A stretch of 64,000 nt of DNA, taken from positions 179,408 through 243,407 of the forward strand of contig NZ_JAVHJP010000003.1 of NCBI RefSeq assembly GCF_031020795.1, in the 5' to 3' direction. Below are positions 20,192 through 54,994 of this stretch, one piece after another; positions within the stretch are counted from its first letter, which is position 1, and every line of letters begins with the position of its first letter. The DNA is from Hydrogenophaga pseudoflava (GTDB taxonomy: Bacteria; Pseudomonadota; Gammaproteobacteria; Burkholderiales; Burkholderiaceae_C). A program made the translations under genes and the position numbers. Below the pieces are notes generated by a model. The model saw nothing but the letters and a program-made list of their open reading frames with translations, searched no databases and was not told the origin of the DNA.

Positions 20192-21022
20192 ATGCCCTGG
20201 CACGCCCGTCTCTCCCTCGACTACCAACGGCAAGGTGACCGCACCGTCCTGCAGCACTCGCACGACGGCCCGCTGCGCATCTTCAAGAGCCTCTACCCTG
20301 AAGGCGACGCGGTCTGCCACAACGTGATCGTGCATCCGCCGGGAGGCCTGGTGGGGGGTGATGTGCTGGACATCGGCGTGCGGGTGGCGGCTGGCGCCCA
20401 CGGCCTGCTCAGCACCCCGGGCGCCACCCGTTTCTACGCCACCGACGAGGCCTTCGCCACGCAGCAGGTGCGGCTGGAGCTGGACGCCGGCGCCCGGCTG
20501 GAGTGGCTGCCGCTGGAGACCATCGCCTTCCCCGGCTGCCGCGCCGAGAACCGCTGGAGCGCGAGCCTGGCCGAGGGCGCCGAGCTGATCGCGTGGGACG
20601 TCACCGCGCTGGGCCTGCCCGGTGCGGCACAGCCCTACGAGCGCGGCGAGTTCCTCCAGCGGCTGGAGATTCCCGGCTGCTGGCTGGAGCAGGCGCGCAT
20701 CGCCGCCGACGACCGGCGCCTGCTGGACTCGCCCCTCGGGCTGGGCGGCCACCGCTGCCTGGGCACCCTGGTGTTCGCCGCCGGCGGCCCGCTGGCGCGC
20801 GAGCGGCGCGAGCACCTGCTGGAGCGTGTGCGCGAAGCCCTCGGGCAGGCGCCGGCGGACGTGGTGGCCGGCGCCACCTTCCCCAACGACCGGGTGCTGG
20901 CGGTGCGCGCCGTGGCGCCGCTGGTCGAGGCGCTGATGGCCTGCCTGCAGGGCGTCTGGGCGGCCCTGCGCCCGGCGGCCTGGGGCCTGCCGGGCAACCC
21001 GCCCCGCATCTGGCGGGTCTGA
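20192..21022 (+). CDS. ureD: Urease accessory protein UreD
   Basis: UreD is the scaffold that binds apo-urease with UreF and UreG for nickel insertion. The 276-residue protein has the family pattern: RLSLDYQRQGDRTVL, HNVIVHPPGGLVGGD, STPGATRFYA, WLPLETIAFPG and a C-terminal ARNPPRIWRV-like end (LPGNPPRIWRV). The remaining urease genes lie about 29 kb away at 50481-54994, whereas in related bacteria ureD usually stands directly before ureA. A GC-rich repeat is immediately upstream, so the original upstream neighbour seems to be gone. Confidence 0.94.
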   Translation: MPWHARLSLDYQRQGDRTVLQHSHDGPLRIFKSLYPEGDAVCHNVIVHPPGGLVGGDVLDIGVRVAAGAHGLLSTPGATRFYATDEAFATQQVRLELDAGARLEWLPLETIAFPGCRAENRWSASLAEGAELIAWDVTALGLPGAAQPYERGEFLQRLEIPGCWLEQARIAADDRRLLDSPLGLGGHRCLGTLVFAAGGPLARERREHLLERVREALGQAPADVVAGATFPNDRVLAVRAVAPLVEALMACLQGVWAALRPAAWGLPGNPPRIWRV

Positions 21023-21150: not shown

Positions 21151-22836
21151 ATGTCCACCCCGCTCCACGACGCCAAGGCGCTCGTCATCGACGGCAACCC
21201 GCTGTCCCGCTCCATCATCGTGGGGCAGCTGCGGGACGCCGGCGTGGGCACCATCGTGCAGTGCCCCCGGCTGGCGGATGCCCGCACCAAGCTGGAAATG
21301 TGGCCCTTCGACGTCGTGATCTGCGAGCAGTACTTCGATCGCGAGGCCTCCACCGGGCAGGAGCTGCTGGACGACCTGCGCCGCAACCAGCTGCTGCCGT
21401 TCTACACGGTGTTCGTGATGGTCACCTCCGAATCCTCATACAGCAAGGTGGCCGAGGCGGCGGAGTCGGCCCTCGACGCCTACCTTCTCAAGCCCCACAC
21501 GGCGGCCGGGCTGGTCGAGCGCATCGTGCAGGCCCGCGACCGCAAGGCCGTGCTCAGGCACATCTTCACCGCCATCGATGAGGAACGCTTCGACGAGGCC
21601 GCGCAGATGTGCAAGGCGCACTTCGAGGCGCGCAAGCCCTACTACCTTTATGCAGCGCGCATCGGCGCCGAGCTCATGCTGCGCGGCGGTCACCTGCACG
21701 AGGCCGAGCTGCTCTACGAGGCCGTGATCGCGGCCAAAACGCTGCCCTGGGCCAAGCTGGGCGTGGCCCGTGCGCAGGTCGAGGGCGGCTTCCAGCAGCG
21801 CGCCGTCACCACGCTGGAAAGCCTGATCGAGACCGACCCCGGCTACACCGACGCCTACGACATCATGGGTCGCGCCCAGTTCGAGCTGGGCAACTTCCAG
21901 GCGGCGCTCGCCACCTTCAAGCGCTCCACCATGCTCACGCCCTCGTCGGTCAACCGGCTGCTCAAGCACGGCATGATGGCCTGGTACGCCGGTGAACGCG
22001 AAGAGGGTGTCGAGATGCTCGACCGGGCCACCCGCATCGGCCTGGACTCCAAGCTCTACGACCCCCAGGCCCTGGTGCTGCTCGCCTTTGCGCGCCTGGA
22101 CAACAACGAACACAAGGGCCTGCAGCGCTGCCGCGAACAGATGGAGCGCATCCGCGACCGCCAGGAAGACAATCCGCGCCCGCAGCGGCTGCTGGAAGTG
22201 ATCGAGGCGCTGATCGCGATCCAGGACTACCAGACCGCGCAGGCACTGGACGACGTTCGTCGCATGGCCAAGACCATCCACCTGCCGACCTTCGACGTGG
22301 AGGCGGCCTGCAACCTGCTGGGCCTGATGACGCGCCTGGCGATGCGTTCGATCCAGCTCTACGAGGTGGACGCCGCGGTGGACACCATGGCGCTGCGCTT
22401 CTGCACCAGCCGCGCGCTGACCGAGCTGCTGGCCTGCGCGGCGACCGGCCGGCAGGACTTCATCAACCGGGTCCGCAGCGGCCACGCCCACATCCTCAAA
22501 CAGACCGAGGAGGCCATGTCGCTGAGCCTGCAGGGCGATCCGCAGGCCGCGGTGGTCAAGCTGCTGCAGGACGGCGAGCAGACGCTCAACGCCAAGATCA
22601 TCGAGTCGGCCCACCTGGTGCTGCAGCGCTACCAGGCGCGCATTCCCGACCACGCCGAACTGCAGCAGAAGGCGCAGGCCATGCGCGAGCGCTACCGCAC
22701 CACCGACATCCACGCCGGCCTGGGCGAACAGGCCCACACCGGACGGGCCGCGGGCGGCATGTCCCTGCCCTCGGGCTACAGACCGCCACCGAAGAGCGAG
22801 GGCCTCTTGGCGAACGTGAACACCGTGGGGGCCTAG
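21151..22836 (+). CDS. Response-regulator-like receiver with TPR domain
   Basis: The 561-residue protein has an N-terminal receiver-like domain (residues 8-125) and then a long helical region with tetratricopeptide repeats (for example residues 170-300; GYTDAYDIMGRAQFELGNFQ). The usual phosphoacceptor Asp position reads VVICEQYF, so Glu59 replaces Asp, and the acidic pocket has one Asp (VIDGNP). The conserved Lys is kept (YLLKPHT). Phosphorylation at that site is unlikely and the Glu could mimic it. No output DNA-binding domain is seen. It resembles receiver-TPR proteins of Burkholderiales of poorly defined function. ATG 21151 is the first start within the domain frame. Confidence 0.82.
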   Translation: MSTPLHDAKALVIDGNPLSRSIIVGQLRDAGVGTIVQCPRLADARTKLEMWPFDVVICEQYFDREASTGQELLDDLRRNQLLPFYTVFVMVTSESSYSKVAEAAESALDAYLLKPHTAAGLVERIVQARDRKAVLRHIFTAIDEERFDEAAQMCKAHFEARKPYYLYAARIGAELMLRGGHLHEAELLYEAVIAAKTLPWAKLGVARAQVEGGFQQRAVTTLESLIETDPGYTDAYDIMGRAQFELGNFQAALATFKRSTMLTPSSVNRLLKHGMMAWYAGEREEGVEMLDRATRIGLDSKLYDPQALVLLAFARLDNNEHKGLQRCREQMERIRDRQEDNPRPQRLLEVIEALIAIQDYQTAQALDDVRRMAKTIHLPTFDVEAACNLLGLMTRLAMRSIQLYEVDAAVDTMALRFCTSRALTELLACAATGRQDFINRVRSGHAHILKQTEEAMSLSLQGDPQAAVVKLLQDGEQTLNAKIIESAHLVLQRYQARIPDHAELQQKAQAMRERYRTTDIHAGLGEQAHTGRAAGGMSLPSGYRPPPKSEGLLANVNTVGA

Positions 22837-23531
22837 ATTGCCACCAGCTGGCGGATGTTTTTGTCCTGCATCTCGCTGCCCGGCCCGCTGGCGATCACCT
22901 CGCCGCGCTCCATCACCACGTACCGGTCGGCCAGTTCCTCGGCGAAGTCGTAGTACTGCTCCACCAGCACGATGGCCATGTTGCCGCGGTCGGCCAGCAT
23001 GCGGATCACCTTGCCGATGTCCTTGATGATGTTGGGCTGGATGCCTTCGGTGGGCTCGTCCAGGACCAGCAGCTTGGGCCCCGCCGCCAGCGCGCGGGCG
23101 ATCGCCAGCTGCTGCTGCTGCCCGCCCGAAAGGTCGCCGCCGCGCCGGCCCAGCATCTGTTTAAGCACCGGAAACAGCTCGAACAGCTCGGCCGGAATCG
23201 GCGTGCCGCCGGGCTTGTAGGCCAGGCCCATCTGCAGGTTCTCCTGCACCGTGAGGCGGGCGAAGATCTCGCGGCCCTGCGGCACGAAACCGATGCCGGC
23301 CCGGGCCCGCTCGTAGGGCGTGGCCTTGTCGATGGCTTTTCCGTCGAAGGTGATGCTGCCGTTCTTGATGGGCACCAACCCCATGAGCGACTTGAGCAGC
23401 GTGGTCTTGCCCACGCCGTTGCGGCCCAGCACCACCGTCACCTGGCCCAGCTCGGCCGTGAGGCCGACGTTGCGCAGGATGTGGCTGCCGCCGTAGTACT
23501 GGTTGACGTCCTTGACTTCCAGGAGGCTCAT
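22833..23531 (-). CDS. urtE: Urea ABC transporter ATP-binding subunit UrtE
   Basis: One of two ATPases of the high-affinity urea importer. The 232-residue protein is of the LivF type: QYYGGSHIL, Walker A LGRNGVGKTTLL, signature LSGGQQQQLAIARAL, Walker B LLVLDEPTEGIQPN. The TEGIQPNII wording is typical of UrtE. It is the last gene of urtABCDE on the minus strand. Its stop codon and that of the converging receiver-TPR gene share the palindrome CTAG (22833-22836). Confidence 0.95.
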   Translation of the reverse strand: MSLLEVKDVNQYYGGSHILRNVGLTAELGQVTVVLGRNGVGKTTLLKSLMGLVPIKNGSITFDGKAIDKATPYERARAGIGFVPQGREIFARLTVQENLQMGLAYKPGGTPIPAELFELFPVLKQMLGRRGGDLSGGQQQQLAIARALAAGPKLLVLDEPTEGIQPNIIKDIGKVIRMLADRGNMAIVLVEQYYDFAEELADRYVVMERGEVIASGPGSEMQDKNIRQLVAI

Positions 23532-23541
23532 CGTGTTTCCT

Positions 23542-24417
23542 TCATCGGCCCAGGTACACCTCGATGACCCGCTCGTCGGCCTGCACTTCGTCGAGCGTGC
23601 CTTCGGCCAGCACAGAACCGTCGCACAGCACGGTGACCTTCTCCGAGATCGCGCGGATGAAGCTCATGTCGTGCTCCACCACCATCAGCGAGTGCTTGCC
23701 CTTGAGCGAGAGGAACAGCTCGGCGGTGCGCGCCGTCTCCTCGTCGGTCATGCCGGCCACCGGCTCGTCCAGCAGCAGCAGCTTGGGGTCCTGCATCAGC
23801 AGCATGCCGATCTCCAGCCACTGCTTCTGCCCGTGGCTGAGCAGACCGGCGGGGCGGCGGGCGCTGTCGGCCAGGTGGATGGTGCTCAGCACCTCGGCCA
23901 GCCGGTCCTTTTCTTCTCCTGTGAGCGAGAACACCATGCTGTGGCCCACGCGCTTGTCGGTGGCCAGTGCCAGCTCCAGGTTCTCGAACACCGAGAGCTG
24001 CTCGAACACCGTGGGCTTCTGGAACTTGCGGCCGATGCCCAGCGCGGCGATCTCGGGCTCGCGGTAGCGCAGCAGGTCGATGGTGCTGCCGAAGAACACC
24101 GTGCCGCTGTCGGGCCGGGTCTTGCCGGTGATGATGTCCATCATCGTGGTCTTGCCGGCCCCGTTGGGGCCGATGATGCAGCGCAGCTCGCCGGGCGCGA
24201 TGTCCAGGTTCAGGCCATTGATGGCCTTGAAGCCGTCGAAGGAGACGTGCACGTCTTCGAGGTAGAGGATGCGGCCGTGCGTGGTGTCGACCTCGCCCGC
24301 TCTTGCAACGCGGCCGTAGCCGGCGCTGCGGCCGCCCGATTCGGTCTTGCCGGTCTCGACCAGGGTCTTGGCTTTTTCGTAGCGCTGCGCGCCCGCTTCC
24401 ATCAGATCCGGCGTCAT
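23542..24417 (-). CDS. urtD: Urea ABC transporter ATP-binding subunit UrtD
   Basis: The second ATPase of the urea importer (LivG type), 291 residues. Visible motifs are IIGPNGAGKTTMMDIITGKTRPD (Walker A inside), GRKFQKPTVFEQLSV, LSHGQKQWLEIGMLL and LLLLDEPVAGMTD. The LSHGQKQWLEIGM signature is characteristic of UrtD. ATG 24417 overlaps the urtC stop (ATGA), which supports it over an upstream in-frame ATG at 24471. About 60 residues precede the ABC domain. Confidence 0.94.
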   Translation of the reverse strand: MTPDLMEAGAQRYEKAKTLVETGKTESGGRSAGYGRVARAGEVDTTHGRILYLEDVHVSFDGFKAINGLNLDIAPGELRCIIGPNGAGKTTMMDIITGKTRPDSGTVFFGSTIDLLRYREPEIAALGIGRKFQKPTVFEQLSVFENLELALATDKRVGHSMVFSLTGEEKDRLAEVLSTIHLADSARRPAGLLSHGQKQWLEIGMLLMQDPKLLLLDEPVAGMTDEETARTAELFLSLKGKHSLMVVEHDMSFIRAISEKVTVLCDGSVLAEGTLDEVQADERVIEVYLGR

Positions 24418-25523
24418 GCCTTGGCTCCCCGCAGTTTCTTTACCAGCCCCACCACGCCCTGCGGCATCCACAGCGTCACGGCGATGAACAGCACACCGAG
24501 GAAGTAGAGCCAGAACTCGGGGAAGGCCACGGTCAGCCAGCTCTTGGCGCCGTTGACGATGAAGGCACCGACGATGGGACCGACCAGGGTGGCGCGGCCG
24601 CCGACGGCGGTCCAGACCGCGATCTCGATGCTGGCCGCCGTGCTCATTTCACCCGGGTTGATGATGCCCACCTGCGGCACGTACAGCGCACCGGCGATGC
24701 CGCACATCACGGCCGAGATGGTCCAGATGGTGAGCTTGTAGGGCAGCGGGTTGTAGCCGCAGAACATGACCCGGCTCTCGGCGTCGCGGATGGCCTGCAG
24801 CACGCGGCCGAACTTGCTCGCCACCAGCCAGCGCGCGAACACATAGAACCCCAGCAGTGTGAGGCCGGTGACGACGAACAGCGTCATGCGCATGCCCTGC
24901 GTGGCGATGGGCAGGCCCAGGATGCGCTTGAAGTCGGTGAAACCGTTGTTGCCGCCCATGCCTGTTTCGTTGCGGAAGAACAGCAGCAGCGCGGCGAAGG
25001 TCAGGGCCTGCGTGATGATGGAGAAGTACACGCCCTTGATGCGCGAGCGGAAGGCGAAATAGCCGAACACGAAGGCCACCAGGCCCGGCACCAGCACGAT
25101 CAGCAGCAGCGTGGCGATGAAGCTGTCGCTCAATGCCCAGTGCCAGGGCAGTTCCTTCCAGTCCAGGAAGACCATGAAGTCCGGCAGGTCGCTCTGGTAG
25201 TTGCCGTCGCGGCCGATCTGGCGCATCAGGTACATGCCCATGACGTAGCCGCCGAGCGCGAAGAACAGGCCGTGGCCCAGGCTCAGGATGCCGGTGTAGC
25301 CCCAGATCAGGTCCATGGCCAGCGCGCAGATGGCGTAGCACATGATCTTGCCCAGCAGGCCGACCATGTAGTCCGACAGGTGGAACACGCTGTCCGCCGG
25401 CACCATCAGGTTCAGCACGGGCGCCAGGGCACAGACCACCAGCAGCGCGACCATCACACCGCTGAAGGCACCGCGCGTGAGCAGCGGACCGGGCGCAGGA
25501 AGGGAAACAGAAGCAGTGGTCAT
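24414..25523 (-). CDS. urtC: Urea ABC transporter permease UrtC
   Basis: Inner-membrane channel subunit (LivM type), 369 residues with 8-10 membrane segments. Motifs include DLIWGYTGILSLGHGLFFALGGY and the coupling region LQAIRDAESRVMFCGYN. The start at 25523 (MTTASVSLPAPG) is chosen because sequence further upstream in frame comes from the GC-rich repeat lying between urtB and urtC. It pairs with UrtB and the two ATPases. Confidence 0.94.
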   Translation of the reverse strand: MTTASVSLPAPGPLLTRGAFSGVMVALLVVCALAPVLNLMVPADSVFHLSDYMVGLLGKIMCYAICALAMDLIWGYTGILSLGHGLFFALGGYVMGMYLMRQIGRDGNYQSDLPDFMVFLDWKELPWHWALSDSFIATLLLIVLVPGLVAFVFGYFAFRSRIKGVYFSIITQALTFAALLLFFRNETGMGGNNGFTDFKRILGLPIATQGMRMTLFVVTGLTLLGFYVFARWLVASKFGRVLQAIRDAESRVMFCGYNPLPYKLTIWTISAVMCGIAGALYVPQVGIINPGEMSTAASIEIAVWTAVGGRATLVGPIVGAFIVNGAKSWLTVAFPEFWLYFLGVLFIAVTLWMPQGVVGLVKKLRGAKA

Positions 25524-25567
25524 AGGAACACATCCATGCGAGCGAGGGTCCAGGTCGAGAGTGCCGC

Positions 25568-25644
25568 GGAACCGGCTCTGCCGGGCCGCTGGCGCTGCCC
25601 CTTGAGGGGCGGAGCGGCCACACGCAGTGGGCAAGCGACGGGGG
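25568..25644 (+). repeat. GC-rich palindromic repeat inside the urt operon, copy 3
   Basis: GGAACCGGCTCTGCCGGGCC, then CCCCTTGAGGGGCGGAGCGGCC and a trailing GACGGGGG. A diverged copy of the family lies in the 124-base gap between urtB and urtC. Neighbouring urt junctions are much tighter, so this looks like an insertion into the operon. Confidence 0.72.
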
Positions 25645-25647
25645 TGG

Positions 25648-27237
25648 TCATGTTTCGCGACCCTTGAATGCAAAGATGCCCTGCGGACGTTTCTGGATGA
25701 AGACGATGATGAAGACCAGCACCGCGATCTTGGCCAGCACGGCGCCGGCCCAGCCTTCGAGGAACTTGTTCAGCAGGCCCAGACCCAGCGCGGCGTAGAC
25801 CGTGCCGGCGAGCTGGCCGACGCCGCCCAGCACCACCACCATGAAGCTGTCGACGATGTAGCTCTGTCCCAGGTCAGGGCCGACGTTGCCGATCTGGCTC
25901 AGCGCACAGCCGGCCAGCCCGGCGATGCCCGAGCCCAGCGCGAAGGCATAGGTGTCGATGCGCGCGGTGTTCACGCCCATGCAGCTGGCAATCGGGCGGT
26001 TCTGAGTCACGCCACGCACGAACAGGCCCAGGCGCGTTTTCGAGATCAGCAGGGTCACGCCGATCAGCACGGCGGCCGCGAAGGCGACGATGATGATGCG
26101 GTTCCAGGGCAGGGTGAGGTTGCCCAGCAGCGTGACGCTGCCGCTCATCCAGCTCGGGTTTTCCACGCCCACGTTCTGCGCACCGAACAGGCTGCGCACG
26201 CCCTGCATCAGCACCAGGCTGATGCCCCAGGTGGCCAGCAGGGTTTCCAGCGGCCGACCGTAGAGGAAACGGATCACGCTGCGTTCCATGGCCGCGCCCA
26301 CCAGGGCTGAGGCGATGAAGGCCACCGGCATGGCGGCCAGCAGGTACCAGTCGAAGAAGTCGGGCAGCGCGCTCTTGAAGAAGGCCTGCACCAGCCAGGT
26401 GGCGTAGGCGCCGATCATGATCAGCTCGCCGTGCGCCATGTTGATCACGCCCATCAGGCCATAGGTGATCGCCAGGCCCAGCGCGGCCAGCAGCAGGATG
26501 CTGCCCAGGCTGATGCCGGTGAAGGCCTGCGAGAGGCCGCTGCTGATCGCCAGCGAGCGGTCGAGCGCGGAGATTGCGGCGCTCAGCGCGGCCTTCACCG
26601 ACGCGCTGTCCTCCGCTTCCAGCCGGGCCGCGAGCAAGGGCTTGAGTGCGGGGTCGCCCATGCCGCCCAGTGCCTGCGCGGCGGCCAGGCGCTGCGCCTC
26701 GTCGTCGCTGGCCAGCTGCATGGCGGCGCGCGCCCGCTCAAGTGAGGCGCGGGCCTCGGCGTCGAGCGCGGTATTGGCCAGCGCCTTGTCCACCAGGGGC
26801 AGCTGCGCGGCATCGGGTTCGTCGAAAGCACTTTTCTGCAGCATGGCGGCGGCGGCCTGCTGGGCCTGCACGTCGCTGCCGAACAGGTCGCGCACCGACA
26901 GCGCGGCTTCCAGTGCGCTGCGCAGCCGGTTGTTGACCATGGAGTCCTCGGCGTCGTCGGCCGGGGTGACCGCCGCACCGGTCACGGCATCGGTCGCACT
27001 GCCGTCGTCGGCGATCAGCAGCACCTGCTCGCCCTGCACCTTGACGGCGCCGTTGCCCAGCGCCTGCAGCAGCGCGAGCGTGCGCTCGTCGGGTGCGGCC
27101 GCCAGCCGGTTGATGGCGGCGATGCGGTCGTCGCTGTCGCCCGCGGCCAGCGCCAGGGCGTCGGCCGGGGTGAGGGCATGTGCACTGGCTGCGCCGATCA
27201 GGCACAACAACACAAGAAGGGAACGCAGCCAGCGCAT
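25648..27237 (-). CDS. urtB: Urea ABC transporter permease UrtB
   Basis: The 529-residue permease has a signal-like N-terminus and a periplasmic helical extension (residues 20-235), as is usual in UrtB. The LivH-type membrane domain follows: LGLAITYGLMGVINMAHGELIMIGAY, GRPLETLLATWG, and the coupling region VRGVTQNRPIASCMGVN. It transports urea with UrtC, UrtD and UrtE. It is 12 bases downstream of urtA. Confidence 0.95.
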   Translation of the reverse strand: MRWLRSLLVLLCLIGAASAHALTPADALALAAGDSDDRIAAINRLAAAPDERTLALLQALGNGAVKVQGEQVLLIADDGSATDAVTGAAVTPADDAEDSMVNNRLRSALEAALSVRDLFGSDVQAQQAAAAMLQKSAFDEPDAAQLPLVDKALANTALDAEARASLERARAAMQLASDDEAQRLAAAQALGGMGDPALKPLLAARLEAEDSASVKAALSAAISALDRSLAISSGLSQAFTGISLGSILLLAALGLAITYGLMGVINMAHGELIMIGAYATWLVQAFFKSALPDFFDWYLLAAMPVAFIASALVGAAMERSVIRFLYGRPLETLLATWGISLVLMQGVRSLFGAQNVGVENPSWMSGSVTLLGNLTLPWNRIIIVAFAAAVLIGVTLLISKTRLGLFVRGVTQNRPIASCMGVNTARIDTYAFALGSGIAGLAGCALSQIGNVGPDLGQSYIVDSFMVVVLGGVGQLAGTVYAALGLGLLNKFLEGWAGAVLAKIAVLVFIIVFIQKRPQGIFAFKGRET

Positions 27238-27249
27238 CAGGACCCCCGC

Positions 27250-28515
27250 TTACTTCTTCTCAGGGACGTTCTTCTTGCCCTTGTTCTCGGCGATGTAGTC
27301 GCTCCACGGATCGGCCACGACCGGACCCGGGGTCTTCCACACCACGTTGAACTGGCCGTCGGCCTTCACTTCACCGATGAACACCGGCTTGTGCAGGTGG
27401 TGGTTTTCCTTGTCCATGGTGGAGGTGAAACCGCCGGGTGCCTTGAAGGTCTGGCCGGCCATGGCGGCGATGACCTTGTCGGTGTCCGTGGACTTGGCCT
27501 TCTCGACGGCCTGGGCCCACATGTTGATGCCGATGTAGGTGGCTTCCATCGGGTCGTTGGTCAGCGGCTTGTCCTTGTGGCCGGCGATGTTCTTGGCCTT
27601 GGCGTAGGCGGCCCACTTCTTGGTGAACTCGGCGTTGGCCGGGTTCTTCACGCTCATGAAGTAGTTCCAGGCGGCCAGGTGGCCCACCAGCGGCTTGGTG
27701 TCGACGCCGCGCAGCTCTTCCTCACCCACCGAGAAGGCCACCACCGGCACGTCCTTGGCCGACAGGCCGGCGTTGCCCAGCTCCTTGTAGAACGGCACGT
27801 TGGAGTCGCCGTTGATGGTGGAGACCACGGCCGTCTTCTTGCCGGCGGAAGCGAACTTCTTGATGTTGGCAATGATGGTCTGGTAGTCCGAGTGGCCGAA
27901 GGGGGTGTACTCCTCCATGATGTCGGCGTCGGCGACACCCTTGGACTTCAGGAAGGCGCGCAGGATCTTGTTGGTGGTGCGCGGGTAGACGTAGTCGGTG
28001 CCCAGCAGCACCCAGCGCTTGGCGCTGCCGCCGTCCTTGCTCATCAGGTATTCCACCGCTGGAATCGCCTGCTGGTTGGGCGCGGCGCCGGTGTAGAACA
28101 CGTTCTTGGACAGCTCTTCACCCTCGTACTGCACCGGATAGAACAGCAGGCTGTTCTTCTCTTCGAACACCGGCAGCACCGACTTGCGGCTCACCGAGGT
28201 CCAGCAGCCGAACACGGCGGCCACCTTGTCCTGGTCGATCAGCTGCTTGGCCTTTTCGGCGAACAGCGGCCAGTTGGAGGCCGGGTCGACCACCACGGGC
28301 TCGAGCTTCTTGCCCAGCACGCCGCCCTTGGCATTGATCTCGTCGATGGTCATCAGGGCCACGTCCTTGAGGACGGTTTCCGAGATGGCCATCGTGCCCG
28401 AGAGGCTGTGCAGCACGCCGACCTTGATGGTGTCGGCGGCGTGGGCGGTGAGGCCGAAGGCGCCCAGGGCGGTCGCGACCGTCAGGGCTTTCAGGGTGAA
28501 TCGACGTTGCATCAT
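27250..28515 (-). CDS. urtA: Urea ABC transporter substrate-binding protein UrtA
   Basis: The periplasmic urea-binding protein, 421 residues, has a signal peptide (residues 1-27, cleavage after AHA) and the family start DTIKVGVLHSLSGTMAISE. Further UrtA marks are FGCWTSVSRKSVLPVFEE, LLFYPVQYEGEE, and GSDYVYPRTTNKI-like LGTDYVYPRTTNKIL. The first of two ATGs (28515) has GGAG 9 bases upstream on the coding strand. It heads urtABCDE, the high-affinity uptake system for the urea consumed by urease. Confidence 0.96.
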   Translation of the reverse strand: MMQRRFTLKALTVATALGAFGLTAHAADTIKVGVLHSLSGTMAISETVLKDVALMTIDEINAKGGVLGKKLEPVVVDPASNWPLFAEKAKQLIDQDKVAAVFGCWTSVSRKSVLPVFEEKNSLLFYPVQYEGEELSKNVFYTGAAPNQQAIPAVEYLMSKDGGSAKRWVLLGTDYVYPRTTNKILRAFLKSKGVADADIMEEYTPFGHSDYQTIIANIKKFASAGKKTAVVSTINGDSNVPFYKELGNAGLSAKDVPVVAFSVGEEELRGVDTKPLVGHLAAWNYFMSVKNPANAEFTKKWAAYAKAKNIAGHKDKPLTNDPMEATYIGINMWAQAVEKAKSTDTDKVIAAMAGQTFKAPGGFTSTMDKENHHLHKPVFIGEVKADGQFNVVWKTPGPVVADPWSDYIAENKGKKNVPEKK

Positions 28516-28893
28516 GGCGCTTCTCCAGGGTTCTAAAACATCCGTTGGGGGGTTCGACTTTCACCACCGCATCGCCTGTGGCAGGCTCAGCGATGGGGTC
28601 GGACGGATGCTAGGGAAGCCCCTGTGAAGCGTCTGTACGCCGGGTGGCGTACGAAGGACGTACACCACTGGGTTCCGGGGACCGGGCCGACCCGTGGTTC
28701 CTTGTCGTAGGAGCGGCAGGCTGCGCAAGAACGAAGGAAAAGCCGGCATTCGGTGGCGCTTTCCATGGCTTGGCTGGGCGCGCAGACGCCCAGAATTCAC
28801 CGGTGCCTTGACCGGGCGACGGAAGGCAAACGGGGCTGGCGCCATGGGCGCGGACCCCGGACCCAGGGTGGCCGCCCAGTACAGGAGACCGAC
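28516..28893. other. Non-coding region between urtA and a small gene
   Basis: This 378-base stretch separates the divergent urtA and the 70-residue gene. It holds an inverted repeat GTACGCC-GGGT-GGCGTAC (28635-28652), with another GTAC 11 bases further on. The position, about 120 bases ahead of urtA, would suit a regulator site. I see no convincing sigma-54 box and no gene. Confidence 0.45.
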
Positions 28894-37628: not shown

Positions 37629-37636
37629 CTCATCAG

Positions 37637-38660: not shown

Positions 38661-39626
38661 ATGACCATGAACAAGTCCCTCATCACCCTGCTGCTGGCCG
38701 CGGCCACCAGCCTGCCCGCCTTCGCCTGGCCCGACAAGCCCATCACCCTCGTCGTGCCCTTCCCGCCCGGTGGCTCCACCGACATGATCGCCCGCCAGCT
38801 CTCCGGCAAGATGGGTGAAAAGCTCGGCGGCAACGCCACCGTGATCGTCGAGAACAAGGCCGGTGCCACGGGCACCATCGGTGCCACCTTCGTGGCCCGC
38901 GCACCGGCCGACGGCCACACGCTGCTGGTGGCGTCGCTCGGCCCCTTCGTGATCGCGCCGCACCTGATCAAGGTGCAGTACGACGCGCTCAAGGACCTGG
39001 ACCCGGTGACTGTGGTCGTGCAGGCGCCCAACGTGCTGGTGGTGCCCGCCGCCTCCGCCCACAAGTCGCTGGCCGACGTGATCGCCTTCCAGAAGGCCAA
39101 CCCCGGCAAGATGACCTTCGCCTCGTCGGGCAACGGTTCCAGCGACCACCTGACCGCCGAGCTGTTCTGGCAGCAGACCGGCACCAGCGGCGTGCACGTG
39201 CCCTACAAGGGCGGCGGTCCGGTGATGAGCGACCTGCTGGGCAACCAGGTGGAGTCGTCGTTCATGAACATCAACACCGCCATGCCGCAGATCAAGGCCG
39301 GCAAGCTGCGCGCCCTGGCCATCACCAGCGCCAAGCGCTCGCCGCTGCTGCCCGAGGTGCCCACGCTGGAAGAAGGCGGCGTGAAGGACGCCAACGTGCA
39401 GTCCTGGCAGGCCGTGGCTGCGCCCAAGGGCCTGCCCGCCGATGTGAAGAAGCGCGTGCACGAGGCCGTGCTGGCCTCGATCAACGACCCGGCCATCAAG
39501 CCCAAGCTGCTGGAGCTGGGTTTCGAGGTGGTGCTGAACACGCCCGAGCAGTTCGCGGCCTTCCAGGCCAGCGAATACGCGCGCTGGCAGAAGCTGATCA
39601 CCAGCCGCAACATCAAGGCAGATTGA
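38661..39626 (+). CDS. Bug/TctC-family tripartite tricarboxylate transporter binding protein
   Basis: The 321-residue periplasmic protein has a signal peptide ([22 protein letters not shown]) and the Bug-family start [43 protein letters not shown] is a further mark. These proteins bind carboxylates for a TctAB membrane pair. No tctA or tctB is in the window, so it works with a distant one or as an orphan sensor. It lies between kdgD and gudD, so an aldarate ligand is likely. Ten C bases stand just before its leader (38619-38628). Confidence 0.88.
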
Positions 39627-39633
39627 GCACACC

Positions 39634-42497: not shown

Positions 42498-42561
42498 ACC
42501 TGTTCCCCCAAGCCAGCGCCACGACTGGCCACTTCCTTCCATCCACCACGGAGACACCACC

Positions 42562-43530: not shown

Positions 43531-43549
43531 CACAGGAGCCCGACGCCGC

Positions 43550-44686: not shown

Positions 44687-44699
44687 CCACACGGCCTCG

Positions 44700-45760: not shown

Positions 45761-46801
45761 TCAGCCCCCCCGCGGCTGCAACAGCGGTACCCGGTTGATC
45801 GCCATCGCCGCCGCCGCGGTGCGCGTCTCCACCCCCAGCTTGGCGTGGATGCGCTCCAGGTGCTTCTTCACCGTCGCCGGGCTGGAACCGAGGATGTCGC
45901 CGATGTCGCGGTTGATCTTGCCCTTGACCACCCAGTACAGCACCTCCGCCTCGCGCGCGGTCAGGCCGAAGGCCTGTGCCAGCGCTTCGAGCACCGCGGC
46001 GTCCGAGGTCTCCTGCATCACGATCAGCCAGTCGCCGGGCTCGCCGTGGGCCTCGTCTTCGTCTCCGATCTGCTGGTGCAGCCGGAAGCTCAGGCGGCGG
46101 GGGCCGTGGGCTATGGTCAGGCGTGGTGGTTCGCGCAGCGGCTGGCCCGGCGCGGGCGGCGCGGCGAACTCGGGCAGCAGGCGCTCCAGCCACTGCAGCA
46201 CCGGCGCGGGCGTCACCGGCGCCTCGGTGCCGAAGTAGCGCTGCAGCAGGTCGCGCGCCAGCGGCGTCTGCCACATCAGCCGGCCGTCGCGCGCACGCAC
46301 GGTGATGGTGGCGTAGCCAAACGCGTCGAGCGCGTTGCGTGCCTGGCTGCGCTCCAGCGCGCCCTGGCGCGACTGGCGCGACTGGCGCAGGTGCACGCCC
46401 ATGCGCGCCATCACCTCCCGCGGCTTGATCGGCTTGGTGACGTAGTCCACCCCGCCCGCCTCCAGCGCCGCGACCAGGTGCTCGGTCTCGGTCAGGCCGG
46501 TCATGAACAGGATGGGGATGTGCGCGGTCTGCGGGTCGGCCTTGAGCTGGCGCGCCACCTCGAAGCCGTCCAGGCCGGGCATCACCGCGTCCAGCAGCAC
46601 CACATCGGGCAGAGCCTGGCGCGCGCGGCGGATGGCCGCCTCGCCGTCGAGCGCCACCAGCACGGTGTAGCCCGCATCGTCCAGAGCGTCGTGCAGCGGC
46701 GCGACGTTGTCGGGCACGTCGTCGACGATCAGCACCACCGCGCCGGGTTCGGCGGACAGCAGGGCGTCGGCGGAGGGGTGGTCGGGCGAGCGGATCATCA
46801 T
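45761..46801 (-). CDS. Response regulator with LuxR-type DNA-binding domain
   Basis: The 346-residue protein has a receiver domain (residues 20-140; phosphoacceptor Asp71 in VVLLDAVMPG, acidic pair IVDD, Lys in YVTKPI). A central region of about 100 residues follows, then a C-terminal LuxR helix-turn-helix (LTAREAEVLYWVVKGKINRD, ATVKKHLERIHAKL). Its ATG overlaps the stop of the transporter-kinase gene by four bases, so it is the partner of that sensor. Target genes probably include the adjacent divergent urease operon or transport genes; this is inferred from position. Confidence 0.92.
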   Translation of the reverse strand: MMIRSPDHPSADALLSAEPGAVVLIVDDVPDNVAPLHDALDDAGYTVLVALDGEAAIRRARQALPDVVLLDAVMPGLDGFEVARQLKADPQTAHIPILFMTGLTETEHLVAALEAGGVDYVTKPIKPREVMARMGVHLRQSRQSRQGALERSQARNALDAFGYATITVRARDGRLMWQTPLARDLLQRYFGTEAPVTPAPVLQWLERLLPEFAAPPAPGQPLREPPRLTIAHGPRRLSFRLHQQIGDEDEAHGEPGDWLIVMQETSDAAVLEALAQAFGLTAREAEVLYWVVKGKINRDIGDILGSSPATVKKHLERIHAKLGVETRTAAAAMAINRVPLLQPRGG

Positions 46802-49800
46802 GCGGTGCGGTCGGTGGAAGGTCGGCCGGCGCCCAGCGGGAGCAGGCGCTGTTCAATGGCCTCGAAGCGGAACTCGCGCGCCAGCGCGCGCAGAGCGTCG
46901 GCGAACGCCGCCTGCTCGGGGTGGTCGGCCGCCCAGTCGTCGAGCCAGCGCATCACACCTTTGGCATAGCCCAGGCGCACCAGCTCCAGCAACGGCGAGA
47001 AGTCGTGCGCGGCGGGCGGTGGCGCCGCGGTGGCCGGCGCGGCCACCGTGTCGGTGGCCACCGGGGCATGCACCCAGCGCAGGCCCAGCTGTTGCTGCAG
47101 CCAGCCCGTGAGGTCGTCGCGCCGCACCGGCTTGACGAAGAACGCCTGATCGGCCGGCCGGCCATCGTTGGCATCGGCCTGCAGGCCCTTGTCGAAGGCG
47201 TTGGCCGACACCACCGCCATGGGCACGGCCGACCAACCCGCGGCGCGCAGCCGGCGCAGCGTCTCCCAACCGTCGATGCCCGGCATGGCCAGGTCCATGA
47301 ACACCGCGTGCGGCGCGCGCTCGCTGTCCGGTGCCACGCCGTCGAGCAGGGCCAGCGCGTCGTGGCCGCTGGTGGCCAGCATCACCTCGAAGCCCAGCGG
47401 CTGCAGCCAGCGCGCGATGAGTTCGCGGTCGCTCTCTTCGTTGTCCACCACCAGCACGCGCCGGCGCGGGCCTTCGTAGCCGGTGACCGGTGCCGCCACA
47501 GCGGCCGGCCGCGTGGCCGCGCCGTGCAGGGCGGGCAGGAACAGGCGCACGCTGAACACCGTGCCCTGGCCCGGCGCGCTGCGCACCGTCATCTCGCCGC
47601 CCATCAGGTCGGTCAGCATCTTGGCGATCGTCAGGCCCAGGCCGGTGCCGCCCCCGGCGGCCGCCGAACCACCCTCGGCCTGCTGGCCGCGCGCGAAGGG
47701 CTCGAACACGCGCTCCAGCTCGGTGTTGCTCATGCCCGGTCCGGTGTCGCTGACCTCGAACACCGCCATCTCGCGCGCATGGCCCACCTTCAGCCGCACC
47801 TCGCCCTCGCGTGTGAACTTCACCGCATTGCCCAGCAGGTTGATCAGGATCTGGCGCAGCCGCTTTTCGTCGGCGCGCACCGCCTCGGGCAGGCGCGGCC
47901 CGGGCTCGAACACGAAGCGCAGGCCCTTGGCCGCGGCCTGCAGCTCGAACATGCTGGCGACCTCGCCCACGGTGTCGGCGAAGGCCATCGGCTTCACATC
48001 GAGCTTCAGCTTGCCCGACTCGATGCGCGCGATGTCCAGCGTGCCCTCGATCAGCGAGAGCAGGTGCTCGCCGCCGCGGTGGATCACGCGGATGGCCTGG
48101 GCCCGGTGCGGTGCCAGCTCGCGGTCTTCCTGCAGCAGCTGGGCGTAACCCAGGATGCTGTTGAGCGGCGTGCGCAGCTCGTGGCTGATGGTGCTGATGT
48201 AGCGGCTCTTGGCCTGGTTGGCCTGGTCGGCGACCTCGCGCGCGCGCTGCAGCTGCTCGTCGGTGCGGCGGTGCGACTCGATCTCCTGCATCAGCAGCCG
48301 GGTCTGCCGGTTGGACTCCTCCTGCGCCACCTCGCGGCTCTTGTGAGCCAGCACCAGCCACCAGGCCACCGTGGCCGCGATCAGCAGCAGCACCGCGTAC
48401 ACGCGCAAAAAGCCCGAGCGCAGCGCGGCGTCCAGCAGGCCCACATCGCCCACCGCGGCCACGCCCTGGCCCAGACCCTCGACCTGCTGCCGGTAGAGCA
48501 GCCCAAGCACCGCCGCCAGCACCGGCGCAATCACCAGCATCAGCAGCAGGTAGTGGGCCAGGCCGGCCTCCAGGTAGGGCCAGGCCCGCTGCGGCAGCAC
48601 CGTGCGCAGCGCCGACTGCCACTGCACCGACAGCCGCGCGTGGGGTTTGCAGAGGTCGCCGCAGCGCGCGTCCAGCGTGCAGCACAGCGAGCAGATCGGC
48701 CCCTGGTAGGCGGGGCAGTGGGCCATGTCGGGGCCTTCGTAATCCCGCTCACAGATAACGCACTTCAGGACGCTCAGGCGCTGGTAGCGATTCGCCGCCG
48801 GGCCGCCCCAAGGCGAATCAGCCCCCTCGGGGGGCAGCGACCCGCGAAGCGGCGGAGCGTGGGGGTCAGCGCCTCTGGCGATGTAATAGCGCCCCTTCGT
48901 CGCCCACGCGATCAGCGGCGCCGTCACCAGCGCCGTCACCATCGCGATCACGGCCGAGAAGGCCTGCGCGCCGGCACCCATCAGGCCCATGTGGGCCGCG
49001 ATCGACAGCGCCGAGGCCAGGCCCATCGCGCCCACGCCCACCGGGTTGATGTCGTACAGATGCGCACGCTTGAACTCGATGCCCTTGGGGCTCCAGCCCA
49101 GGGGCTTGTTGATCACCAGGTCGGCCACCACCGCCATGATCCAGGCGATGGCGATGTTGCTGTAGAGGCCCAGCACCTCGCCCAGCGCGCGGAACACGTT
49201 CATCTCCATCAGCATGAAAGCGATCAGCGTGTTGAACACCACCCAGACCACGCGGCCGGGGTGGCTGTGCGTCAGGCGCGAGAAGAAGTTGCTCCAGGCC
49301 AGCGAGCCGGCGTAGGCGTTGGTGACGTTGATCTTGAGCTGCGAGACCACGACGAACAGCGCCGTGGCCGCCACCGCCCAGCCGTAGTTCGGGAACACGT
49401 ACTCGTAGGCGGCGAGGTACATCTGGTTGGGGTCGACCGCGCGCTCCACCGGCACCATGTGGCTGATCGCGAGGTAGGCGAGCAGCGCACCGCCCAGCAT
49501 CTTGAGCACACCCAGCAGCACCCAGCCCGGACCGCCGGCCAGCACGCCCGCCCACCAGCGCCCGGCCCGCCCCCGTTGCGGCGCCGGCATGAAGCGCAGG
49601 TAGTCCGCCTGTTCGCCCATCTGCGTGATGAGCGCGATGCCCACCGTCAGCGCCGCACCAAACAAGTGCCAATCAAAGGCGATGCCCGCACCACTTTCGC
49701 CCCCGTAGTGCACCACATTGGAAAACGCACCCGGATCGAGCACCCACACCGCCACGAAGGGAACGACCATCATCACCAGCCACAGCGGCTGGGTCCAGAC

Positions 49801-50370
49801 CTGGAAGCGGCTGATGATGGACACGCCGTAGGTCACCAGCGGAATCACCACGAGGGCGCAGATCAGGTAGCCCCAGGCCGGCGGGATGTCCAGCGCCAGA
49901 TCCAGCGCGTAGGCCATCACCGCCGCTTCGAGCGCGAAGAAGATGAAGGTGAACGAGGCGTAGATCAGCGAGGTGATGGTCGAGCCGATGTAGCCGAAGC
50001 CTGCGCCGCGGGTGAGCAGGTCCATGTCGACGCCGTAGCGCGCGGCGTAGACGCTGATCGGCAGGCCGGCCAGGAAGATGATCAGCCCGGTCGCGAGGAT
50101 GGCCCAGAAGGCGTTGACGAAGCCGTACTGCACCAGCAGCGTGGCGCCCACGGCTTCGAGGATCAGGAACGAGGCCGCGCCGAACGCGGTGTTGGCCACC
50201 CGCCATTCGCTCCACTGGCGGAAGCGCTGCGGCGTGAAGCGCAGCGCGTAGTCCTCCATGGTCTCGCGGCCGACCCAGCTGTTGTAGTCGCGGCGCACCT
50301 TGATGATGCGCTGGACCGGCTCGGGTCGCCCGGCCAGCGGATCGGTCGCGAGGTCGGATGGGGTGTTCAC
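46798..50370 (-). CDS. NCS1 transporter / hybrid sensor histidine kinase fusion
   Basis: This protein of about 1190 residues fuses four modules. Residues 20-510 are an NCS1-type (cytosine/allantoin permease-like) membrane domain with about 12 helices ([27 protein letters not shown]-type [10 protein letters not shown]). Residues 537-577 are a Cys-rich segment ([32 protein letters not shown]). Two more helices follow, then HisKA and HATPase domains (His near 729 in [24 protein letters not shown]), and a receiver with Asp near 1026 (VFMDLAMPG). It probably senses the transported or bound compound. GTG 50370 fits the family start; an ATG at 50472 is an alternative. A GC-rich repeat lies in frame at 48797-48865. 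It is divergent from ureA. Confidence 0.88.
48797..48865 (+). repeat. GC-rich palindromic repeat inside the transporter-kinase gene, copy 5
   Basis: GCCGGGCC, CCCCCTCGGGGGG and GCGAAGCGGCGGAGCGTGGGGG, matching the intergenic repeat family in sequence and order. It is read in frame without a stop, giving about residues 502-525 between the membrane domain and the Cys-rich segment ([19 protein letters not shown]). Confidence 0.78.
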
Positions 50371-50480
50371 CCTGTGGTTTTCGCACCTTTCGTGCCATAC
50401 GCCGGATGCCGGATAGGCAATGCCGCGCGCGGCGGCATACTGGTCCACCATCCCGGCACACGCCTTGCTCATTCCTGTCC

Positions 50481-50783
50481 ATGGAACTCACACCCCGCGA
50501 AAAAGACAAGCTGCTGATCTTCACCGCCGCCCTGCTGGCCGAGCGGCGCAAGGCGCGCGGCCTCAAGCTCAATTACCCCGAAGCCGTGGCCCTGATCAGC
50601 GCTGCGGTGATGGAAGGCGCGCGCGACGGCAAGACCGTGGCCCAGCTCATGAGCGAAGGCCGCGCCGTGCTCACGCGCGAGGACGTGATGGAGGGCGTGC
50701 CCGAGATGATTCCCGACATCCAGGTCGAAGCCACCTTCCCCGACGGCACCAAGCTCGTGACCGTGCACACCCCGATCGCCTGA
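50481..50783 (+). CDS. ureA: Urease gamma subunit
   Basis: The 100-residue protein is the small gamma subunit of the nickel urease: [58 protein letters not shown]. It is the first gene of ureA-small ORF-ureBCEFG. About 110 bases separate it from the divergent transporter-kinase start and must hold both promoters. ureD is not adjacent. Confidence 0.97.
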
Positions 50784-50970: not shown

Positions 50971-51276
50971 ATGATCCCCGGCGAATACCTGATCGACGAC
51001 GGCGAGCACGCCCTCAACCCCGGCCGCTCCACGCTCACGCTGGTGGTGCAGAACACCGCCAACCGCCCGGTGCAGGTGGGCTCGCACTACCACTTTGCCG
51101 AGACCAACGCCGCGCTGTCCTTCGACCGCGCGGCCGCGCAGGGCAAGCGCCTGAACATCGCCAGCGGCACCGCCGTGCGCTTCGAGCCCGGCCAGCAGCG
51201 CACCGTCGAGCTGGTGGACTTCGCGGGTGAGCGCATCGTGTACGGCTTCCGTGGCCTCGTGCAAGGAAAACTCTGA
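50971..51276 (+). CDS. ureB: Urease beta subunit
   Basis: The 101-residue beta subunit shows the family sequence: [61 protein letters not shown] and [11 protein letters not shown]. It assembles with UreA and UreC. It starts 10 bases after the small ORF and ends 2 bases before ureC. Confidence 0.97.
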
Positions 51277-51278: not shown

Positions 51279-52997
<1,719 letters not shown>

Positions 52998-53017: not shown

Positions 53018-53617
53018 ATGCTTCAAGTCTCCAAACTCGTCCCGCAGGGCAAGGGGCTGGCGCCGGTGCTGGTGCGCCGCGCCGCCACGGTCACCCTCGA
53101 CTGGGATGTCCGCCAGAAGAGCCGTTTCGACGCCGAGTCGTCCGATGGCCGCCGCGTCGGCGTGTTCCTGCCGCGCGGCACCGTCGTGCGCGGCGGTGAC
53201 GTGCTGGTCACCCAGGACGGCTCGCTGCTGCGGGTGAACGCCGCGGCCCAGCCGGTGCTCAAGATCACCGCCTGCACCGACCACCACCACGGGCACGACC
53301 ACGACCCCGCCTTCGACCTGATGCGCGCGGCCTACCACCTGGGCAACCGCCACGTGCCCATCGAGCTGCGGCCCGATCACCTCAAGATCGAGCCCGACCA
53401 TGTGCTGGCCGACCTGCTGCGCACCATGCACCTGAACGTGGCCGAGGTGCGCGAGCCTTTCGAGCCCGAGGGCGGGGCCTACGCCGCCGGTCATGGCGGT
53501 CACGGGCACAGCCATGGCCACGAGCACCACGGCCATGACCATGGGCACGCCCACCCCAGCCACGACCACGGACACGGTCATGGCCACCACCACGCGCATG
53601 GTCACGACCACGGCTGA
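53018..53617 (+). CDS. ureE: Urease nickel chaperone UreE with long His tail
   Basis: UreE delivers nickel to the urease complex. The 199-residue protein has the N-terminal domain ([27 protein letters not shown]) and a central metal-site domain ([13 protein letters not shown]). The C-terminal tail of about 40 residues is more than half His/Gly/Asp ([17 protein letters not shown]), which can bind many nickel ions. The tail coding region overlaps the start of ureF by 20 bases. The start ATG is 20 bases past ureC. Confidence 0.95.
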
Positions 53618-54314
53618 AGCGCCGGCGACCGTGGCGGCCGGGCTGCTGCACACGCTGTGGCTGGCCTCGCCGGCCCTGCCGGTCGGCGGCTTTTCGTATT
53701 CCGAAGGATTGGAAGCTGCGGTGGACGCCGGGCTGGTGCGCGACGAGGCCAGTGCCGCCGCCTGGCTCGCCGACCAGCTGCAGCTCTCGCTCGCGCGCAG
53801 CGACCTGGCGGTGGTGGCGCAGGCCATCCCCGCGTGGCGGGCGAACGACCTGGCCCGCATCCGTGCGCTCAATGACTGGGTGCTCCGCACCCGGGAGACC
53901 CAGGAGTTCCGCCTGCAGACCGAACAGATGGGCCGCTCGCTGCAGGCCTGGGCGCAATCGCTGGGCGAGTTCGGCGGCGGCGTGCTGCAGCGCCTGCAGG
54001 CGGCGGATCTGCAGCCGCCCACCTACCCGGTCGCCATGGCCTGCGCTGCGGCGGCCTCGGGTGCGCCCCTGGCCGACAGCCTGGCCGGCTTCGCCTTCGG
54101 CTGGGCCGAGAACATGGTGCAGGCGGCCATCAAGTCGGTGCCGCTGGGTCAGAGCTCGGGCCAGCGCATGCTGGCGCGCCTGGTGACCGAGATCCCCGGC
54201 GCCGTGGCCTACGCGATGGCGCTGGGCGACGAAGACCGCCAGGCCTTCACGCCCCTGCTCGCCATCCTGAGCGCCCGCCACGAAACCCAGTACTCGCGAC
54301 TGTTCCGATCCTGA
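53598..54314 (+). CDS. ureF: Urease accessory protein UreF
   Basis: UreF bridges UreD and UreG in the urease activation complex. The 238-residue protein shows [43 protein letters not shown] and [23 protein letters not shown] 53598 ([12 protein letters not shown]) is chosen because further upstream in frame the sequence is only the shifted reading of the ureE His tail. That leaves a 20-base overlap with ureE. Confidence 0.94.
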
Positions 54315-54325: not shown

Positions 54326-54994
54326 ATGACCGCCCTGCACCACATCCCGAACCGCACCAAGACCCTGCCCCCGCTGCGCGTGGGCATCGGCGGACCCGTC
54401 GGCTCGGGCAAGACCACGCTGCTCGAGATGCTGTGCAAGACCATGCGCGAGCGCTACGACCTGGTCGCCATCACCAACGACATCTACACCAAGGAAGACC
54501 AGCGCCTGCTCACCGTCAGCGGCGCACTGCCGGCCGAGCGCATCATGGGCGTGGAAACCGGCGGCTGCCCGCACACCGCCATCCGCGAGGACTGCTCGAT
54601 CAACCTCGAAGCCATCGACCGCATGCTGGGCGAGTTCCCGGACGCCGACATCGTGTTCGTCGAATCCGGCGGTGACAACCTGGCCGCGACCTTCAGCCCC
54701 GAACTCTCCGACCTGACGATCTACGTGATCGACGTCGCGGCCGGCGAGAAGATCCCGCGCAAGGGCGGGCCCGGCATCACCAAGAGCGACCTGTTCGTCA
54801 TCAACAAGACCGATCTGGCGCCCCACGTCGGGGCCGACCTGGAGGTGATGAAACAGGACACCACGCGCATGCGTCCCGACACCGCGCGCAAGCCCTGGGT
54901 GATGACCAACCTCAAGACGCTCGACGGCGTGGCCGAGGTCGTGCGCTTCATCGAGCAGCGCGGCATGCTGACCCCGGCCAGCGCCTCGACCTGA
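54326..54994 (+). CDS. ureG: Urease GTPase UreG
   Basis: UreG hydrolyses GTP during nickel delivery. The 222-residue protein has the P-loop [10 protein letters not shown] (residues 22-31), the metal-linked motif [14 protein letters not shown] (CPH), [15 protein letters not shown], and the guanine motif NKTDLAP. Last gene of the urease operon; a tRNA-Ser gene follows 31 bases later. Confidence 0.97.

Follow-up and report, generated by a model that had tools for sequence, protein, structure and literature searches.

The transporter-fused histidine kinases described in the literature passages available for comparison are of the SLC5/STAC and Amt types. Among the former, CrbS is a hybrid kinase paired with a LuxR-type regulator, which depends on an imperfect inverted repeat in the promoters it controls, according to passages from two papers (PMC5715377, PMC9100948). 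In the open-licence PubMed Central (PMC) literature we did not find a description of a histidine kinase of the NCS1 type. Here we describe such a kinase, encoded in a 64-kb stretch of the Hydrogenophaga pseudoflava genome (contig NZ_JAVHJP010000003.1; the whole stretch is called the window). The gene is divergent from a urease operon. It probably belongs to a transceptor-type sensor system for urea or a small amide that would switch on the genes for urea import and hydrolysis; the ligand is a prediction.

The kinase, its parts and its regulator are encoded as follows:

46798..50370, minus strand: NCS1-type hybrid sensor histidine kinase gene (open reading frame of 1190 amino acids, GTG start at 50370)
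48874..50295, minus strand: NCS1-type transmembrane domain, residues 26-499 (hhalign to NCS1 proteins, AlphaFold2 model, Foldseek to Mhp1/CodB)
48787..48865, minus strand: interspersed repeat of about 80 bp in the linker coding sequence, in frame, residues about 502-528
48640..48762, minus strand: eight-cysteine module, residues 537-577 (spacing kept in 155/155 kinases)
48331..48591, minus strand: two helices between the cysteine module and HisKA, about residues 594-680, approximate limits (AlphaFold2 model)
48013..48213, minus strand: HisKA, residues 720-786, with H730 (Pfam)
47536..47871, minus strand: HATPase_c, residues 834-945 (Pfam)
47107..47457, minus strand: receiver domain of the kinase (Response_reg), residues 972-1088, with D1026 (Pfam)
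45761..46801, minus strand: response regulator with REC and a LuxR-type helix-turn-helix (HTH; GerE), phospho-Asp D71 (Pfam)

A first-pass annotation, made from the letters alone, had read the gene as a chain of about 1190 residues with an NCS1 domain, a Cys-rich module, two helices, HisKA and HATPase domains and a receiver. The open reading frame, Pfam and the structural model bear out this layout. The protein has what is expected of a hybrid kinase, i.e., HisKA, HATPase_c, a receiver, an adjoining REC-HTH regulator and the phospho-acceptors, and both H730 and D1026 are invariant in an alignment of 22 members. No HPt and no PAS domain was found in the chain by Pfam. The helices that follow the cysteine module span 573-616 and 622-698 in the model (add 21 for protein numbering). 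The coupled LuxR-type regulator was also correctly called: Pfam identifies REC and GerE, and its gene overlaps the kinase gene by 4 bp. Conservation of the eight-cysteine spacing throughout the kinase set confirms that the architecture is real and more than chance. Among the matches listed, the closest named relatives are from Hydrogenophaga.

The N-terminal domain lies far from the described members of the NCS1 family. PF02133 did not match the window protein (Pfam, E<=1) or the N-terminal stretches of 22 members scanned singly at the same threshold, and a search of the organism's own genome with PF02133 gave no match. PDB sequence searches by phmmer with the window stretch and by hmmsearch with two family profiles found no transporter. 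The single PDB match of the N-terminal profile, Intersectin 2 (E 2.4), is presumed to be a composition effect. Comparison of the 22 N-terminal stretches with six NCS1-type proteins in hhalign gave a probability of 99.7 (E 7.9e-26, 423 columns), against 0.5 for an NCS2 permease and 61, over part of the length, for another symporter; the test is mildly circular because the six proteins were found with the kinase family's own profile. Four of them pass the PF02133 cut-off, one falls below it and one has no match; as a set they match CodB (E 2e-29) and Mhp1 (1e-13) in the PDB. L182, a homologue without a kinase and with 45% identity to the window stretch, scores above the PF02133 cut-off (31.8 vs 23.5 bits), and a second such homologue (L167) has no PF02133 match. 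The AlphaFold2 model (predicted local distance difference test, pLDDT, 77.8; predicted template modelling score, pTM, 0.78) has Mhp1 and CodB at Foldseek ranks 1-5, with moderate TM-scores by target length of 0.59-0.70 and a root-mean-square deviation of 5-7 Å, and relatives of SLC5, Nramp and LeuT rank below them. An NCS1-type domain, if a remote one, is thus established by the profile-profile comparison, the standalone homologue above PF02133 and the predicted structure. The full NCS1 permease-like domain of the first-pass annotation stands on hhalign, the homologue L182 and Foldseek, without a direct PF02133 match, and the contrast it drew with SLC5-type kinases agrees with the best structural matches.

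The annotation had also counted about ten cysteines and histidines between residues 537 and 577. These are residues 537, 540, 551 (His), 552, 560, 563, 564, 570, 574 and 577 (His), i.e., eight cysteines and two histidines, and the spacing present in every one of the 155 kinases is C2C11C7C2CC5C3C. The module is not confined to kinases. The kinase-less L167 (10905-12446), located beside the formamidase FmdA and an aliphatic amidase, carries the complete module at its C-terminus. L182, located next to ureG in a ureA-C-F-G run (a urease operon), retains only the cysteines aligned with C537, C540, C560 and C563; the other four are absent. Because these homologues carry the module in whole or in part without a kinase, it appears to belong to the transporter and to have come along in the fusion. 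The suggestion of a different sensor design holds as far as the module's conservation in 155/155 kinases goes, but the module is not a new coupling linker. The four cysteines retained in L182 suggest two separable four-cysteine sites. The cysteine tail of L182 also matched tetrahaem cytochromes in the PDB (E 0.0014 and 0.004), which we presume to be composition effects. Downstream of a distant NCS1 protein without the module (L225, 5949-10373) come a carbon-nitrogen hydrolase and a binding protein of periplasmic type; this NCS1 protein possibly represents another amide-linked lineage.

The linker between the transporter domain and the module contains the interspersed repeat. The linker DNA has 45 matches in its own genome, itself included. 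RNA folding of the repeat is no better than that of shuffles (z -0.53). The nearest orthologue (L045) is without the repeat. In L048, L050 and L051 the corresponding position is occupied by stretches of a similar SLPPEG type, which suggests that repeats of this kind have entered the linker more than once (142/155 sequences were kept in the linker comparison; those without a recognisable boundary were dropped). Residues about 502-528 are outside the conserved design. A kinase orthologue in L056 (7959-11672) has a AAGPPQGGEAPSGGS-type tandem insertion inside its receiver domain, and this insertion resembles the linker repeat family as read from the opposite strand.

The kinase is widespread, and its neighbours recur. 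The N-terminal stretch matches 203/299 genomes of the family at E<=0.001, the weakest presumably through the linker repeat, and profile matches were found in 18/369 genomes of the class and 58/398 sampled Pseudomonadota genomes (six of the 58 are weak, some being plain NCS1 permeases). Loci were taken from the best 80 of at least 576 named matches, 20 family stretches, 18 from the class, 10 chosen group-2 loci and 31 from the phylum. Four duplicate loci (L086, L113, L122, L164) were dropped, leaving 158 distinct sequences, and 154 were counted as kinases (76 named, 21 family, 16 class, 10 group-2 and 31 phylum; L119, cut by a contig end, was excluded). Gene calling with a codon model trained on the window failed on the low-GC (guanine plus cytosine) loci L171-L173, L175, L177, L180, L181 and L183, and locus contexts were therefore redone by tblastn. 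As markers we used urt and ure for urea, and the UrtABCDE-like ATP-binding cassette (ABC) transporter, FmdA and AmiE for short-chain amides. The link to nitrogen genes, which the first-pass annotation had proposed to check in homologues, holds at 142/154 distinct kinase loci: the fetched stretch has ure in 58, ure and urt in 30, urt in 6, amide markers in 47, amide markers and urt in 1, and no marker in 12. Going upstream from the kinase, the first marker reached is a divergent ureA at 71 loci and a divergent FmdD at 29, in both cases within 400 bp (distances measured between the ends of tblastn matches). A regulator is next on the same strand at 139 of the 145 kinase loci with enough flank. 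FmdA or AmiE is present at 43/47 amide loci, and the other four have an FmdD-type binding protein only. Both FmdA proteins tested score above the NCBIfam formamidase cut-off. Group-2 kinases typically face the UrtABCDE-like ABC operon, often with an aliphatic amidase nearby. A quick tree was built from the window and 102 of the 158 sequences (103 rows), and on it the urea and amide labels need 7 changes; the backbone is weakly supported, and the claim is therefore limited to the recurrence of both settings. The kinases of L180, L181 and L173 have neither an adjoining regulator nor urea or amide markers in the fetched stretch, and that of L180 is near a RuBisCO gene.

A candidate operator connects the two settings. 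Expectation-maximisation (EM) motif search on 26 kinase-fmdD intergenic regions gave naTACGTcaattgACGTAtn, with a log-likelihood ratio of 312 at width 20 against 34 for sequence shuffled with base composition alone preserved. The dyad TACG[C/T]C-N4-G[A/G]CGTA, first seen in the fmdD promoters and carried over to the urtA promoters, precedes both genes. The window has two copies:

28636..28651, no strand: perfect operator-like dyad TACGCCGGGTGGCGTA, 121 bp upstream of the urtA start
50398..50413, no strand: degenerate operator-like dyad with 2 mismatches, between the kinase gene and ureA

With at most one mismatch, the dyad is found in 20/26 fmdD promoters (control 1/260), 33/38 urtA promoters (control 5/380) and 13/68 kinase-ureA regions (control 5/680), counts for which the degenerate letters were chosen after both promoter sets had been seen and the shuffle controls preserved base composition only. 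The four duplicate loci were also omitted from the urtA set. A width-18 matrix trained without the window sequence found its best match in the 64-kb window in the kinase-ureA gap and a tied-third match before urtA, and of the dyads in the 64 kb only that at urtA is perfect. The same EM search on kinase-ureA regions gave a palindrome, gTGscay..., with no carry-over to the urtA promoters scored, and it was dropped as shared ancestry.

Genomes of the same family without the kinase provide a natural control. Of 54 such genomes (20 without a match, 34 with weak matches only, E 1.7e-12 or worse), 27 have urtA; a profile recheck of 10 of the 54, run without a positive control, matched none. The dyad precedes urtA in 5 of 26 readable kinase-less genomes (L289, with no readable start, was dropped), against 33/38 in the kinase set (Fisher 6e-8, a descriptive value). 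A full-length regulator is kept in 3 of the 27 kinase-less urtA genomes, and all three have the dyad. In the kinase set the regulator adjoins the kinase at 37 loci, with the window as the 38th. Tallied by regulator, the dyad is present at 36/41 urtA promoters with one and at 2/23 without. The phospho-Asp is present in 146 of 148 full-length regulators (aligned from before residue 30 to beyond 300, the four duplicate loci included). The two exceptions, both Ala, are L302 and L303, from two genomes of one genus, where the kinase is absent and the regulator and dyad are kept. That the kinase and the phosphorylation site are lost while regulator and dyad persist is what a kinase-regulator-operator chain predicts, and control in L302 and L303 seems to have become independent of phosphorylation. 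The regulators of L302 and L304 directly face ureA, in the place that the kinase-regulator pair takes in other genomes.

The annotation had named the NCS1 ligand residues as a test, and this gave a mixed result. In chained alignments, Mhp1 Asn318 corresponds to N351 and is kept. Gln121 corresponds to Glu148, and Trp117 and Trp220 correspond to F144 and T242, neither of them Trp; we take these four Mhp1 positions to be substrate residues. Ser312 and Thr313, presumably the Na2 site, correspond to Lys346 and Ile347. E148, Q344, K346, N348 and N351 are invariant in 102/102 sequences, whether urea-linked, amide-linked or other (the distant standalone L225 was left out of this count). Mean column identity is 79% for the NCS1 domain and 63% for the whole chain. 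In L064 (7689-11201), the NCS1 domain is like that of the amide group and the cysteine module and kinase are like those of the urea group; this kinase is a possible recombinant between paralogues.

We propose that the NCS1-family domain, with its own C-terminal cysteine module, would bind urea or a closely related small amide. Its occupancy or conformation would be passed through the cysteine module and the two helices to the histidine kinase, which would phosphorylate the co-encoded REC-LuxR regulator, either directly or through the kinase's own receiver. The regulator would then switch on urea import and hydrolysis by binding the dyad ahead of urtABCDE, with weaker binding between the kinase gene and ureA. 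Elsewhere, in paralogous systems and in distant ones, a kinase-regulator pair of this kind would control the amide ABC transporter, FmdA and AmiE from the fmd promoters. We infer the identity of the ligand, the direction of the signal, binding of the dyad by the regulator, metal binding by the module, and that the sensor need not transport. The short-chain amide context that recurs with FmdA and AmiE points to urea or small amides. The positions invariant in both groups, with V/L414 alone setting the groups apart, suggest a ligand feature that urea and amides have in common, the carboxamide group. More broadly, and tentatively, the family may quite possibly be a widespread, undescribed class of Pseudomonadota transceptors, in which a hybrid kinase captured whole NCS1-type urea/amide permeases together with their two-site metal-binding cysteine tail. 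Its members would sense external urea or small amides directly and work through a dedicated LuxR-type regulator and a shared operator, and the cysteine tail, possibly metal-gated, would be a mechanical coupler in place of STAC. The sensor would serve bacteria for urea, a major nitrogen source, and an operator, a regulon and a function are predicted for a gene family with the reach in Pseudomonadota given above. Whether these domains transport or sense is testable because kinase-less homologues with the same module stand beside urease and amidase genes.

The genes around the kinase in the window include those of both urea import and hydrolysis:

50481..50783, plus strand: ureA (urease gamma; Pfam), divergent, 110 bp from the kinase start
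50971..51276, plus strand: ureB (urease beta; Pfam)
51279..52997, plus strand: ureC (urease alpha; Pfam)
53493..54314, plus strand: ureF (Pfam)
54326..54994, plus strand: ureG (named by position and similarity)
22833..28515, minus strand: urtEDCBA, urea ABC transporter operon (UrtA above the NCBIfam TIGR03407 cut-off)
20192..21022, plus strand: ureD

The divergent urease operon of the first-pass annotation is confirmed by Pfam for ureA, ureB, ureC and ureF. The urt subunits other than UrtA are named by position and by what we take to be their likeness to known subunits. ARAGORN called a tRNA-Arg at 53134-53225, inside the urease accessory gene region, which is probably a false call. Urate-to-urea degradation genes (4471-21022) lie next to urt, and a block of sugar-acid-type genes (29140-45755) lies between urt and the kinase. 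Pfam identifies five of the block's genes (a galactarate/altronate dehydratase, two enolase-type proteins, a TctC receptor and an aldose epimerase), one further gene is an epimerase-type dehydrogenase, and the remaining ones presumably also belong to sugar-acid catabolism. In several relatives, L057, L091 and L098 among them, urt is directly beside the kinase-regulator pair, and the block may therefore be an insertion.

Several observations weigh against a urea or amide sensor acting through this operator. The choice of ligand follows from genomic context and the dyad. The amide-linked binding protein tested also scores above the cut-off of the NCBIfam urea UrtA model (514.8 vs 492.75 bits), so that the amide label rests on FmdA and AmiE. 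Two amide-labelled kinases (L055 8344 and L116 9944) belong to the urea group and stand in tandem with an amide-group one; they are two of the four amide loci with a binding protein only. The 12 kinases without a urea or amide marker in the fetched stretch are a further difficulty: ten neighbours from five of these loci are, by Pfam, RuBisCO, LysR, a DeaD helicase, two-partner (TPS) secretion, HlyD, a kinase, an aminotransferase, an integrase, or nothing. When two clades were compared, V/L414 was the one position to distinguish urea-linked from amide-linked kinases, and thus the tree gives no specificity switch. The H-box pattern was found in 146/154 kinases (136 standard, 10 with RSP) and is unresolved in 8. 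The dyad is absent (3-5 mismatches) in 5/38 urtA promoters (L176, L179, L259, L261, L263); these belong to urea-linked kinases from other families of the class, and the dyad is therefore not general for urea-linked kinases. The ureA-side dyad of the window is poor, with its 2 mismatches, and a good one is found in only 13/68 kinase-ureA regions. Genome-wide there are two perfect dyads, against one for a reversed-pattern control, and no predicted gene in the 3 kb surrounding the second matched a window gene. Two genomes without the regulator, G027 and G008 (the latter 65% complete), have the dyad, and the kinase-less genome G062 (L304), which bears the regulator, keeps the phospho-Asp. Because loci and genomes are related, the Fisher values overstate independence and the p values are descriptive.

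The first-pass annotation had proposed purine, hydantoin, allantoin or cytosine as a signal that tunes urea metabolism; the NCS1 domain would then anticipate the release of urea. Known NCS1 members carry such substrates (PF02133 description), and genes for urate oxidase, HIU hydrolase, OHCU decarboxylase, XdhC and an NCS2 permease are in the same window. The distance from these purine genes to the kinase is, however, at least about 26 kb, and in the relatives' gene maps, which cover the loci apart from the eight low-GC loci and the 31 phylum stretches, the kinase has no neighbour among the urate genes of the window. Purine or hydantoin sensing was set back to an alternative for this reason. 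The other recurring context is short-chain amides, not purine products, and both Mhp1 Trp positions, presumably substrate contacts, are non-Trp in the kinase. We consider this signal very improbable. We give as little credence to a sensor in the cysteine module itself, with the NCS1 domain a mere anchor and urease tuned to metal or redox state. Such a sensor would account for eight cysteines at fixed spacing in 155/155 kinases, but the module is also the tail of the kinase-less transporter L167 and in part of L182, and the NCS1 domain is better conserved than the chain as a whole. Amide-linked members with FmdA or AmiE share the same module, and a link between urease and its metal therefore does not explain it.

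The kinase could also read transport flux or general nitrogen status through a domain that still transports, and not ligand occupancy as such. The standalone homologues, placed among urease and amidase genes, resemble functional permeases, and CbrA is reported, in passages of two papers, to combine transport and kinase activity (PMC7096432, PMC13022988). On the other side, a passage on Ks-Amt5 has its transporter domain sensing although transport is lost (PMC5764959), which is not decisive. We regard flux sensing as unlikely, though well worth keeping in mind, and prefer the occupancy of the NCS1 domain by urea or a small amide as the signal.

Compared with described systems, the window kinase resembles CbrA, CrbS and RpuS in having a transporter-family domain fused N-terminally to a histidine kinase. 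In these the domain is SLC5; in the window kinase it is NCS1 by Foldseek, and Pfam found no SLC5 match in it. The window protein has the eight-cysteine module and two helices between transporter and kinase and no PAS domain by Pfam. No meaningful Pfam match was found in the region between transporter and kinase, where no separate STAC profile was run. The described kinases are tied to histidine, acetate or pyruvate genes, whereas the window system is tied to urea and amide genes. Ks-Amt5 is likewise a histidine kinase whose fused nutrient transporter domain was recruited to sense a nitrogen compound, but, as far as the passages from its description go, it has an Amt fold and 679 residues (PMC5764959), in place of NCS1, cysteine module, receiver and co-encoded regulator. 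Mhp1 and CodB (PF02133) share fold and homology with the window domain, to which the window protein adds the cysteine tail and the kinase; Pfam misses it because it is remote from the PF02133 members. The gene clusters next to group-2 kinases are of a kind already reported: the blr0969 region of Bradyrhizobium is a UrtABCDE-like cluster with an amide substrate inferred (PMC3098086, in part), and a hybrid kinase and a LuxR-family regulator are listed beside urt operon III of Ectopseudomonas guguanensis (PMC13296017, in part). These clusters share the UrtABCDE-like ABC transporter, FmdA and AmiE with the clusters beside group-2 kinases, and the passages from the two papers do not describe the sensor as an NCS1 fusion, the cysteine module or the dyad. 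With an NCS1 type coupled by another module, the transporter-kinase design would have arisen again from a different transporter family.

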